Shown one piece after another: positions 39,741 to 43,180 of a stretch of DNA of 64,000 nucleotides. Under the pieces are notes generated by a model. That model did no database searches and was not told where the DNA came from. It saw nothing but the letters and a program-made list of their open reading frames with translations. This DNA is from Methanobrevibacter ruminantium M1 (GTDB lineage: Archaea > Methanobacteriota > Methanobacteria > Methanobacteriales > Methanobacteriaceae). The translations under genes and the position numbers were made by a program. The stretch lies in the NCBI RefSeq assembly GCF_000024185.1, contig NC_013790.1, positions 1,077,501-1,141,500 on the forward strand, given 5' to 3'. The number at the start of each line of letters is the position of its first letter. Within the stretch, counting starts at the first letter, position 1.

Positions 39741-40435
39741 AACCATAAAGTTAATTTAAATATATTTAAAGAATATATATTCATTAATTATATAAATAAA
39801 ATTCATATGGGTAATATTTTACTCTCTAAAGCTCTCAGCTATGTTCAAGTTGTTTTTTTTAGTTTTTCCCAATTTTATCATGAAATCTGTAGTTTTTTCA
39901 CAAAATTTTAAAAAAATGGCCTATAATCCATTTTTTTTAAAGAATTTACTCATTTTTATACAAAACCTTTATATACTATAAAATACTTAAATATTACTAA
40001 TCTATATGTCTACAATTTGTAATTTATAAGAAATTTTTAAATTTTTTATTATTTTTCATAATTTATTTTGGTATTCGACATCTGTCTAATGTTAAATATC
40101 ATATTCAAAGGTTTTTTAATGATTTAGCTTGGGCTATGTCTTTACTAAAAATCTTATAGCGTATTTAAGTAATTTTAGAGTTATGTTTCTAAAAATACTT
40201 AATTTAATTAATTTAAATTATTTGAATATTTTAATATTTTTAATTATTTAATTATTTTAATTATTTAATTATTTGAATTTTTTAATAATTTGAATTACTT
40301 TTAAGATTAAATTGTGATTAGTAATAAGATTCTTTTTTAATTATTTTTTTATTTTACGCGATTATCGGTAATTTAGTGCTTTTTTTGACTAAATACTTTA
40401 ATCAATGTTGCATATGGATTAAAAACTTAAAAAAA
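39741..40435. other. Long AT-rich spacer with a strong promoter near its start
   Basis: 695 nt before the SPOUT gene. A strong promoter-like element lies at 39962-39980 (separate entry), over 450 nt from the next ATG. Beyond 40190 the sequence is a degenerate array of AATTATTTAATTATTTGAAT-type units. No protein-coding gene is seen. A non-coding transcript in 40000-40400 is possible. Confidence 0.5.
39962..39980 (+). promoter_or_regulatory. Strong archaeal promoter element (BRE-TATA)
   Basis: AAAACCTTTATATACTATA has an A-rich BRE-like stretch followed by TTTATATA, close to the consensus of stable-RNA promoters in methanogens. The predicted start would be near 40005, giving a leader of more than 400 nt before the SPOUT methyltransferase gene. 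Confidence 0.5.
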
Positions 40436-41260
40436 ATGATAAATATGCAAAATAGTAAAGTGTCTGTCTTTATACCGAATTCATTTCTCGCTGAAACCAA
40501 GGATTTAAAGCTAAAAACCTCTAAAGTAGGTTTGATTGGCCGTGCCTTGGCTGTATTTGAAGTGGATGAAGTGGTGATTTATAAAGATCTTTCAATTCCA
40601 GACAGCGAACAGACTGATGATGGAGATTTCATTGCAGAAGTCCTCAATTATATGGACACTCCACAATACCTTAGGAAAAAGGCAATTCCTATCAAGGCAG
40701 AATTGCGTCACGTTGGAATATTGCCTCCTTTGAGAGTTCCTCATCATCCAACTGGAAAGCCTGAATTAGGTGATTACAGACAAGGATTCACTGTAAAAAG
40801 GAATAAGAAAGGTACCTTCGTAGATATAGGTATGGATAAACTGGCGTTTTGCAAAGAGCAACTTACAGTAAATAAGATTTTTTCATTTAAAATTACTAAG
40901 TTTGCTAAAGAGGTAATAGTCACACCTGATGAACCAGATGACATTTACTGGGGATTTAAGACATTATCTACAAATAAAAGTCTTAAAAATAGCTTAAAAT
41001 TAGTTAATCCCGATCTTGTTGTAGAAACAACAAGGTACGCAGAAACAATCGATTCTATTTTTAATGAATTGAAAACTAAAGTGGAAAGCTCTAATCATAT
41101 AGCGATTGTCTTTGGAGGCCCTTACTCATCTATAAGTGAGAATGTCGAAAGTTCCAAATGGGAAACAGTTAAAATCAATACAATCCCAAATCAGGGAACA
41201 GAGACTGTCAGGACCGAAGAGGCTGTTATTTCAACTTTAGCTATTTTCAATATACTTTAA
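40436..41260 (+). CDS. SPOUT-family RNA methyltransferase (COG2106, Mth1-like)
   Basis: A 274-residue protein (M21 of the longest frame) with MDTPQYLRKKAIPI, HVGILPPLRVPHHPT and a C-terminal FGGPYSSISEN / NTIPNQGTETVRTEEA block. These are hallmarks of the COG2106/DUF171 SPOUT family (M. thermautotrophicus Mth1; eukaryotic SPOUT1), a trefoil-knot methyltransferase with an inserted OB-like domain (about 100-180). A uridine-N3 rRNA activity has been proposed for the family. The gene sits directly before rpl3, a position conserved in methanogens. The start is ambiguous between ATG 40436 and ATG 40445, since the ribosome-binding site is weak. An earlier frame start at 40376 adds a Cys-rich extension I do not believe. 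Confidence 0.88.
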   Translation: MINMQNSKVSVFIPNSFLAETKDLKLKTSKVGLIGRALAVFEVDEVVIYKDLSIPDSEQTDDGDFIAEVLNYMDTPQYLRKKAIPIKAELRHVGILPPLRVPHHPTGKPELGDYRQGFTVKRNKKGTFVDIGMDKLAFCKEQLTVNKIFSFKITKFAKEVIVTPDEPDDIYWGFKTLSTNKSLKNSLKLVNPDLVVETTRYAETIDSIFNELKTKVESSNHIAIVFGGPYSSISENVESSKWETVKINTIPNQGTETVRTEEAVISTLAIFNIL

Positions 41261-41281
41261 GCCAATAGTTCATTGTTGGCT
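41260..41281 (+). terminator. Hairpin directly after the SPOUT gene stop
   Basis: AGCCAA/TTGGCT, a 6-bp stem with a 10-nt loop, begins on the last base of the stop codon and ends in TTT. It is the first of four consecutive hairpins. Confidence 0.5.
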
Positions 41282-41288
41282 TTCGCTT

Positions 41289-41357
41289 TCATGCAGCGTA
41301 ATGCATGATGCTTTCATGTGGCAAGACACATGATGCTTTATGTGGCATTACACATAA
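41289..41357 (+). repeat. Three tandem 7-bp hairpin units
   Basis: Three perfect hairpins, each with a 7-bp stem and a 6-nt loop: TCATGCA-GCGTAA-TGCATGA (41289-41308), TCATGTG-GCAAGA-CACATGA (41314-41333) and TTATGTG-GCATTA-CACATAA (41338-41357). They are separated by TGCTT-type linkers and followed by TTTTTAT. Stem bases differ between units while pairing is kept, which argues for selection on structure. Confidence 0.9.
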
Positions 41358-41640
41358 TTTTTATAAATTCATTATAAAACATATAGATATATAGCTTTAG
41401 CTACTGTTAGCTTTAGCTTTCAAGGATTTGCTTTATAATTAGACACTATAAAGTTTATTCATTGGTTAAGAGTAGTTGCGATTTAGAATAGGCATTAGAA
41501 CGAAATTAATTGGATGAATAAAGATATTTTAAAGTTCAAATAAACTTTAACTTTAAGATAGAATAATCTTTGAGAAGTAAAATAAACAAGTTTGAGCTTG
41601 TTTTTCATGTTTATCTAGCTCTATTTAGCTTTATTATGCC

Positions 41641-41787
41641 TGTTTAAATTTTTTGGCCCTCTACCAGTCCTGTATCCTAGGATAATTTACTAAAAGGTAG
41701 ACTGTATGCCGAATCTAGATATTTAGTTAAGGAGACCTGTATGCTAAATTATTTGCCTATTATATATGAATAATAAGTTTAAACAGT
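41641..41787 (+). ncRNA. Candidate structured RNA or L3 operon leader
   Basis: CTGTTTAAA (41641-41649) and TTTAAACAG (41779-41787) are a perfect 9-bp closing stem around about 130 nt that is visibly less AT-rich than its surroundings. Inside are CTACC/GGTAG (41662-41701), ATTTAG/CTAAAT (41722-41750) enclosing AGG/CCT, and three CTGTAT motifs spaced 32-35 nt. Strand and function are unknown; a small RNA or a cis-acting ribosomal protein leader are both possible. Confidence 0.4.
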
Positions 41788-42169
41788 GTAGAATTTTAGC
41801 GATTTGCTAAAAGAGCAAATATGGCTATTTATTCTAGATTTATTGATTTTTATGATTTGATCAATTACTTTTAGAATTAATCTTAATTCTTTTTAATTGG
41901 ATTAATGTTCTTAATAATTGATTAATATATTAATTTTGCTTATTCATTGAATCGATAAATCAATCTTAAATTCGGTAAATATTGTACTCGCAATTTAAGA
42001 AAATTGAATAGATTTAGATGATAAAAAAATATTTTAAAGTTTAAATCTATGAAATTTGTAGATTTAAATGATAAATAGAGAATATTTTTTTAATTTGAAT
42101 CTATTACAATCTATTAAATATAGATTAAACTGATTAATTATAGGAAATTATAAATAACGGAGGAAAAGA

Positions 42170-43180
42170 ATGGTAAGACATCACCAACCAAGAAAAGGTT
42201 CAGTGGCATTTAGCCCTCGTAAGAGAGTTGCTAAAGAGACCCCAAGAATCAAAGCTTGGCCAAGTAATGAAGAACCAAAACTTTTGGGTCTTGCTGGATA
42301 TAAGGCTGGTATGACTCATGCTATGGTTGTGGACAATGATAAAAACTCTCCATCCCATGGAATGGAAGTTTTCACTCCTGTAACCGTTTTGGAAGTACCA
42401 CCCCTTGTAATTTTGGGGATAAGATCATACGAAAAAACTGCTCACGGACTTAAGGCTATCACTGAAGTAATTGCAGATAATTTGGATGAAGAGCTCTCTA
42501 GGAAAATCACCCTTCCTAAGGACTACGACCAATCCGAAGCTATTGCAAAAATACAAGATGCTTTAGAAAAGACTGAAGAGGTAAGAGTCTTAGTACACAC
42601 TAATCCTAAAATGGCTAGCGTTCCTAAGAAGAAACCTGAAATCTTTGAATGTGCATTAGGCGGAAGCTCTGCAGAAGAAAAATTAAACTACGCTCTTGGA
42701 ATTTTAGGTCAAGAAATCAGAGCCAGTGATATCTTTAGCGAAGGACAGTATGTAGACGCAATTGCAACCACCAAAGGAAAAGGAGTCCAAGGGGTTGTAA
42801 AGAGATGGAACATCAGAATTCAATATGGTAAGGCAATGAGAAGTGGAAAAGGTAGACACGTAGGTTCTATCGGTCCATGGTCTCCGGAAAGAACCATGTG
42901 GACTGTTGCACAAGCAGGTCAGATGGGATACCATAAGAGAACTGAATTCAATAAGAAAGTCATTAAGATTGGAGACGTATCTGAAGTTGATGCTGTTAAC
43001 CCTGCTGGAGGATTCATTAGATATGGTTTAGTCAAAAACGACTATGTCCTTGTAAAAGGCTCCGTACCAGGTCCAACCAAAAGGTTAGTTATTCTCAGAC
43101 AAGCTATCAGACCTAAGAAAGCTGACGATGCAGCTCCTCAAGTGAACTACATAAGCACTGCTTCAAAACAAGGTGTATAG
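42170..43180 (+). CDS. rpl3: Ribosomal protein uL3
   Basis: A 336-residue archaeal L3: it opens with MVRHHQPRKGSVAFSPRKR and contains the conserved KGVQGVVKRW and HRKTGS-equivalent region KGRHVGSIGPW, with TMWTVAQAGQMGYHKRTEFN after it. It binds 23S rRNA near the peptidyl-transferase centre and starts large-subunit assembly. The start ATG follows GGAGGAAAAGA. It opens the ribosomal cluster and is followed 10 nt later by rpl4, so it lies at the head of a long operon whose promoter must be in the 900-nt region upstream. Confidence 0.97.
   Translation: MVRHHQPRKGSVAFSPRKRVAKETPRIKAWPSNEEPKLLGLAGYKAGMTHAMVVDNDKNSPSHGMEVFTPVTVLEVPPLVILGIRSYEKTAHGLKAITEVIADNLDEELSRKITLPKDYDQSEAIAKIQDALEKTEEVRVLVHTNPKMASVPKKKPEIFECALGGSSAEEKLNYALGILGQEIRASDIFSEGQYVDAIATTKGKGVQGVVKRWNIRIQYGKAMRSGKGRHVGSIGPWSPERTMWTVAQAGQMGYHKRTEFNKKVIKIGDVSEVDAVNPAGGFIRYGLVKNDYVLVKGSVPGPTKRLVILRQAIRPKKADDAAPQVNYISTASKQGV

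Follow-up and report, generated by a model that had tools for sequence, protein, structure and literature searches.

What is the series of hairpins that follows the SPOUT methyltransferase gene of Methanobrevibacter ruminantium M1, and what could it do between this gene and the ribosomal protein L3 operon? The locus lies in a 64,000-nucleotide stretch, hereafter the window, that corresponds to positions 1077501-1141500 of a single-contig genome of 2,937,203 bases. The L3 gene is the next gene, 909 nt past the SPOUT stop codon. The features of the locus, with the pseudoknots discussed below as predicted elements, are the following:

40448..41260, + strand: main part of the gene for a PF02598 RNA methyltransferase (SPOUT1/C9orf114-like; Pfam E 1.6e-55)
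41258-41260, + strand: SPOUT stop codon TAA
41259..41282, + strand: hp1, a 9-pair hairpin overlapping the stop codon, with a constant loop (GUUCAU) and a covarying outer stem
41284..41308, + strand: predicted pseudoknot unit 1; S1 41284-41286 (CGC) with 41296-41298 (GCG); L1 41287-41288; S2 41289-41295 with 41302-41308; loop L3 TAA
41309..41333, + strand: predicted pseudoknot unit 2; S1 41309-41311 (TGC) with 41321-41323 (GCA); L1 TT; S2 41314-41320 with 41327-41333; loop L3 AGA
41334..41357, + strand: predicted pseudoknot unit 3; S1 41334-41336 (TGC) with 41345-41347 (GCA), which A41333-T41348 can extend; L1 T; S2 41338-41344 with 41351-41357
41358..41369, + strand: T5 (41358-41362), with which the L3 operon's putative TATA box TTTTTATAAATT begins (presumed promoter role)
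41398..42169, + strand: putative L3 operon leader (5', long); contains conserved segments as well as hairpins whose loop, UAGACA(C), is constant
41431..41453, + strand: UAGACAC-loop hairpin of the leader
42170..43180, + strand: ribosomal protein L3 gene, first of the downstream operon (Pfam E 5.6e-97)

The four hairpins described in the earlier note after the SPOUT stop are all present with the stem and loop letters given there, and the 25- and 24-nt spacing of the three matched ones is recovered. The exception is the start of hp1, which lies at 41259, one base before the position claimed. The two outer A's of hp1 are the last two bases of the stop codon TAA, and one of its 9 pairs is G-U. The three following hairpins (41289-41308, 41314-41333 and 41338-41357) each have 7 pairs and a 6-nt loop. 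The region 41230-41400 (171 nt) folds at -49.6 kcal/mol (z -6.0), a value matched by 0/200 shuffles. In a 464 kb sample of the genome, composed of the window and 20 stretches of 20 kb, the array is the sole run of five perfect hairpins of at least 7 pairs, the fifth of which overlaps the putative TATA box and was absent from the earlier note. Runs of at least three hairpins number 4 in this sample versus 0 in its Markov copy. A scan with bacterial-type promoter and terminator models, of small value for an archaeon, gave one terminator-like site, at unit 2, and found no sigma-70 promoter.

Two general origins of the array were considered and rejected. It is the sole four-stem region among 246 sampled gene 3' regions, and at least one hairpin of 7 or more pairs occurs in 84 of these versus 1240 of 4920 Markov copies (34% vs 25%), an excess of 3'-end hairpins that is too weak to be its source. 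A dispersed palindromic repeat (REP/MITE-like) would have copies elsewhere; none were found in the genome by pattern or covariance model. The array pattern with 1 mismatch has 3 matches, all at the array, and covariance model R1 scores 40.2 bits there and 19.9 bits (E 0.94) at one other site, within a coding frame. A family-wide R1 search with stricter filters (138 genomes) returned three same-genus genomes at the array site and one match in another genus; note that this search misses most true same-genus units and does not measure absence. No linker partner was seen by eye in the R1 matches in a coding frame (L085) and in an AT-rich gap of another genus (L088). Pseudoknots of the same geometry number 50 in 928,000 bases (both strands) and 40 in the Markov copy, without clear enrichment, in a count whose non-overlap rule leaves out unit 2 of the array.

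The earlier note had read the stem differences between units as the mark of selection on RNA structure, a view against which absence from close relatives or stem changes without compensation would speak. The genus displays the opposite on both counts. The named relatives are Methanobrevibacter sp. and M. olleyae. Among 19 same-genus genomes, 13 cover the SPOUT stop and beyond (12 include all or almost all of the gene, G005 its 3' part), 2 end inside the gene and 4 have no match. All 13 covering genomes carry hp1 and at least one unit after the stop codon. The array begins directly at the stop, except in G012, where hp1 starts 27 nt further on, shortly past it. One unit is found in 7 genomes (G001, G002, G004, G005, G006, G007, G016), two in 5 (G008, G009, G010, G012, G013) and three in the window. 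Among them are 10 distinct sequences, with 16 distinct units in total. The stem changes within the genus are compensated: over 12 aligned units S2 is 98.8% paired with changes on both sides at 5/7 pairs, and the whole-structure covariation score is 0.468 versus 0.242 after shuffling (0/500). In hp1 the outer stem has both-sided changes at 3/9 pairs (0.409 vs 0.254 shuffled, 0/500) around a loop, GUUCAU, that is unchanged in 10/10 distinct sequences. Selection on RNA structure is thus supported by compensated stems kept in relatives.

In the SPOUT gene tree, where several forks are open, the one-unit species group together (98/97), the two-unit species stand elsewhere and the three-unit window stands alone. 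At 26 loci from outside the genus, scans of the first 200 nt past the stop (fewer where the gap does not reach that far; one locus holds runs of N) did not recover the array; the one candidate among them is unrelated to it in place and sequence. The array is, as far as searched, confined to one genus. Other Methanobrevibacter (L029, L030, L031 and similar loci) have at the same place after SPOUT a different single hairpin (TTTATTAG...CTAATAGA in L029), which stands before a TTTTTATACATT block.

The conserved part of the unit loops leads to a further pairing. The earlier note described a loop pattern G-C-x-x-x-A; its GC start holds in 16/16 units, but the pairing that explains it was missed. 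The constant loop start (GCG or GCA) is complementary to a linker of 3-5 nt on the 5' side of the stem in each of the 16 distinct units, and the two partners shift in step: CGC:GCG, TGC:GCA, ACGC:GCGT, TTGC:GCAA and AACGC:GCGTT. The window has CGC:GCG in unit 1 and TGC:GCA in units 2 and 3, the other combinations being found in relatives. At least 3 contiguous S1 pairs at the loop start occur in 16/16 units, while shuffles within units average 3.3 and never exceed 11/16 (20,000 trials). For the three units of the window alone, 338/20,000 such shuffles equal the observed pairing. Background hairpins of the 464 kb sample show S1-like pairing with at least 2 G-C in 3/381 cases, and of any composition in 62/381. 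The downstream linker could pair with the loop in 6/16 units and in 0 of nine last units, compared with 16/16 for the upstream linker; pairing with the downstream linker was rejected because a partner is lacking in every last unit.

The S1 pairs differ in what they reveal. At pairs 1-3 all 48/48 cells are standard pairs (whole-linker permutation mean 45.75, P 0.007), and moving the register by one leaves 0/32 and 3/48. Pair 3 has the clearest compensation (C-G in 12 units, U-A in 3, U-G in 1), the middle pair 2 (G-C) is invariant and pair 1 changes at just one of its two positions (C-G in 12, U-G in 4). Pairs 4 and 5 are partly kept (9/16 and 7/16), and S1 is limited to 3 pairs, G-U included, in 7/16 units. 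With pair 4 included the permutation P rises to 0.029, and with pair 5 as well to 0.076; it is 0.022 for the summed Watson-Crick length. In the 12 aligned units, with the linker of one unit treated as a gap, S1 is counted as 100% paired, and both-sided change is seen at one of its pairs. Compensation in S1 rests on pair 3, perhaps through two independent events for which window units 2/3 and unit 1 of L015 are the candidates, and on the partial pairs 4-5. The wobble cells indicate the strand. All nine are G-U on the + strand (5 in S1 pairs 1-3, 1 in S2, 3 in hp1), where the opposite strand would read A-C; the structured strand is therefore the coding strand of SPOUT and L3.

Pairing of a hairpin loop with bases outside its stem defines an H-type pseudoknot, described as two stems and two loops (PMC1149493). 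The units have this a-b-a'-b' order, supported by comparison, with S1 of 3-5 pairs, S2 of 6-7 pairs, L1 of 1-3 nt, L2 of 0 and loop L3 of 2-6 nt. Such lengths lie within groove-span limits, which require L1 to cross 6-7 pairs with no less than 1 nt and loop L3 to cross 3 pairs with no less than 2 nt. The window units adjoin head to tail with zero spacer. Note that the nested minimum free energy fold differs, in that the GC of the linkers on either side of unit 1 are paired to each other. A tandem H-type pseudoknot structure after the SPOUT gene, a shape that is unexpected where an archaeal gene ends, is considered probable, and it is from the comparison of sequences that we infer its formation in the cell. 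The linker-loop complementarity and the interpretation of the array as stacked H-type pseudoknots, which appears to be the best reading, are new in this analysis; a search by title of one open-access library found no paper on tandem pseudoknots in archaea or on a Methanobrevibacter array.

At its 3' side the last unit of the window directly adjoins TTTTTATAAATT (41358-41369), whose TTATAA core is present in 10/10 distinct sequences of the genus. Archaeal U-tract terminators are marked by four to seven consecutive U where the transcript ends. In 6/10 distinct sequences a T5 follows the last stem at a distance of no more than 3 nt and can also be read as part of the TATA box; it is missing in L005, L008, L013 and L015 (4/10). 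We take TTTTTATAAATT for a putative TATA box belonging to the L3 operon that would double as U-tract in some species. The putative TATA block at 41359-41379 is itself an inverted repeat (TTTTATAA/TTATAAAA), and a similar dyad is found in several relatives.

Because the array runs from the stop codon up to a putative promoter, it is most simply read as a barrier in the 3' UTR. The array would then be the 3' UTR of the SPOUT methyltransferase mRNA, formed by the stop-codon hairpin followed by one to three stacked H-type pseudoknots. Its compact structure would slow RNA polymerase at the U-tract and block 3'-5' exonucleases, leaving a protected 3' end on the SPOUT message, and the barrier would keep the SPOUT transcript out of the L3 promoter and leader. 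The part played by termination is weakened because T5 is missing in 4/10 distinct sequences. Taken as a whole, with pseudoknots that form in the cell, an array transcribed as 3' UTR, a real TATA box and a barrier function, this proposal is plausible but tentative. Since hp1 starts within the stop codon, structure-stimulated read-through of this codon was also considered; it was dropped, the frame past the stop being not kept by eye (it is shifted in L014 and other frames end differently).

The chief rival is an array of protein-binding RNA sites, in which the SPOUT enzyme, a ribosomal protein or another protein would bind the constant loops and gain avidity from their copies. SPOUT or L3 expression would be tied to ribosome supply, and conservation of the recognition sequence would have produced the linker-loop complementarity as a side effect. 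The earlier note had proposed a protein- or RNA-binding array that might tune read-through into the L3 operon, and either role may apply. The invariant hp1 loop (10/10), the GC that starts the unit loops in 16/16 cases and the presence of 1-3 units among relatives all agree with it, a variable unit number being usual for avidity arrays. However, the third loop base and the linker co-vary, which a pure sequence motif does not need, and no result points to a protein. This explanation, compatible with pseudoknots, is rather unlikely but carries more weight than the others. Unlikelier is that the array forms the 5' end of a long L3 leader with a start site further upstream, where it would control the L3 operon. 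The leader downstream is itself a conserved structured RNA of which the array could be the first domain, but a TATA-like block stands between them in 10/10 distinct sequences, the first leader hairpin follows this block by ~30 nt, and other Methanobrevibacter, which also have a TATA-like block and a structured leader, though a shorter one, lack such pseudoknots.

An action at the DNA level, with three dyad-symmetric operator sites for a dimeric regulator upstream of the L3 promoter, accounts for inverted repeats that reach exactly to the putative BRE/TATA and for last units that all end in TA or TAA. The fixed half-site spacing it implies is not observed (the arm distance is 6-9 nt), the arms vary freely around an asymmetric loop, and the presence of G-U but zero A-C cells in S1, S2 and hp1 fits RNA and not a dimer site, so that an operator appears improbable. 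Ordinary terminator hairpins multiplied by local duplication, with a partly coincidental linker-loop complementarity, are held to be just as improbable. A hairpin able to terminate is known in Haloferax, unit 2 is terminator-like in the bacterial-type scan and the unit count differs among relatives; yet complementarity in 16/16 units versus 3.3 expected, similar pairing in only 3/381 background hairpins and the T5 missing in 4/10 speak against them.

The preferred 3'-UTR barrier can be compared with several known systems. Hairpins were reported to precede 503 3' ends in Haloferax, and for one of them a test showed 59% termination along with read-through (PMC7237163), while the U-tract terminators described for four mapped archaea have no preceding hairpin (PMC8716108). 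The statement of the earlier note that multi-hairpin terminators are not usual in archaea is softened by the Haloferax hairpins. Like aCPSF1 U-tract termination or the Haloferax hairpin terminator, the window array places structure upstream of a T5 at a gene 3' end, but it has several stacked units and T5 is missing in 4/10 distinct sequences. The nearest analogue in shape is found in the 3' UTR of tobacco mosaic virus, whose upstream domain is described as three consecutive pseudoknots (PMC4683447). That domain belongs to a viral RNA and is followed by a tRNA-like structure, whereas the array belongs to an archaeal chromosomal gene, has 1-3 units and no recognised tRNA-like part; the relation is one of likeness and not of membership, and no homology is claimed. 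Compared with the classical H-type fold, which its loop lengths suit, the array is tandem, has zero spacers and an S1 of down to 3 pairs, and is known from sequence. With ribosomal protein leader motifs it shares the position of a conserved RNA beside a ribosomal protein operon, but it lies upstream of the putative promoter and has no Rfam match.

Positions 40000-43000 gave no Rfam covariance-model match at E<=1, and this interval also includes the L3 leader. The SPOUT-L3 gap measures 593-912 nt in the genus and 316-365 nt in most other Methanobrevibacter loci, with longer gaps outside the genus in L028 (721 nt) and L047 (504 nt). Leader segments are conserved across the genus (GCTTTAGCTA...TAGCTTTAGC; CAAGGATT...AATCTTTGAGAAGT; GTTTATCTAGCT...TATTTAGCTT), and 41398-42169 is a candidate regulatory RNA of the ribosomal-protein operon. 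Its hairpins with the constant loop UAGACA(C) have stems that change freely (covariation 0.665 vs 0.210, 0/500). One to several are found per L3 leader (41431-41453; L024:1532-1616; L026:1567-1617; L025:3970-4020; L027:4018-4040). All 22 matches of their model in the genus with E up to 0.03 are at the SPOUT-L3 locus; because strong genus matches occur only in the L3 leader, the hairpin is a possible binding site of a regulator. In another genus of the family, L120 and L121 carry a UAGACAC-loop hairpin (ATTAATG ATTAGACAC CATTAAT; ~1512, reverse strand) at the start of a transporter-like reading frame, either by chance or as a second site. In L050, a more distant Methanobacteriaceae archaeon, the SPOUT-L3 gap is 47 nt, which suggests that SPOUT and L3 were once one transcript; as this gap is so short, both the array and the long leader may have been acquired later.

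The formation and protection of mRNA 3' ends in archaea are still little understood, and RNA structure is as a rule assigned a minor part in them. The array marks the boundary between SPOUT and L3 beside a long uncatalogued L3 leader RNA. In its boldest form, which is speculative and rather doubtful as it stands, the proposal is that of a new archaeal cis-element in which 1-3 interchangeable pseudoknots and an anchoring hairpin make up a whole 3' UTR abutting the promoter of a large ribosomal protein operon and would act as a modular barrier to transcription and exonucleases, its strength set by the number of units. With natural one-, two- and three-unit versions at a single site in closely related species, such an array would make it easy to test if RNA structure determines where archaeal messages end and insulates neighbouring operons.
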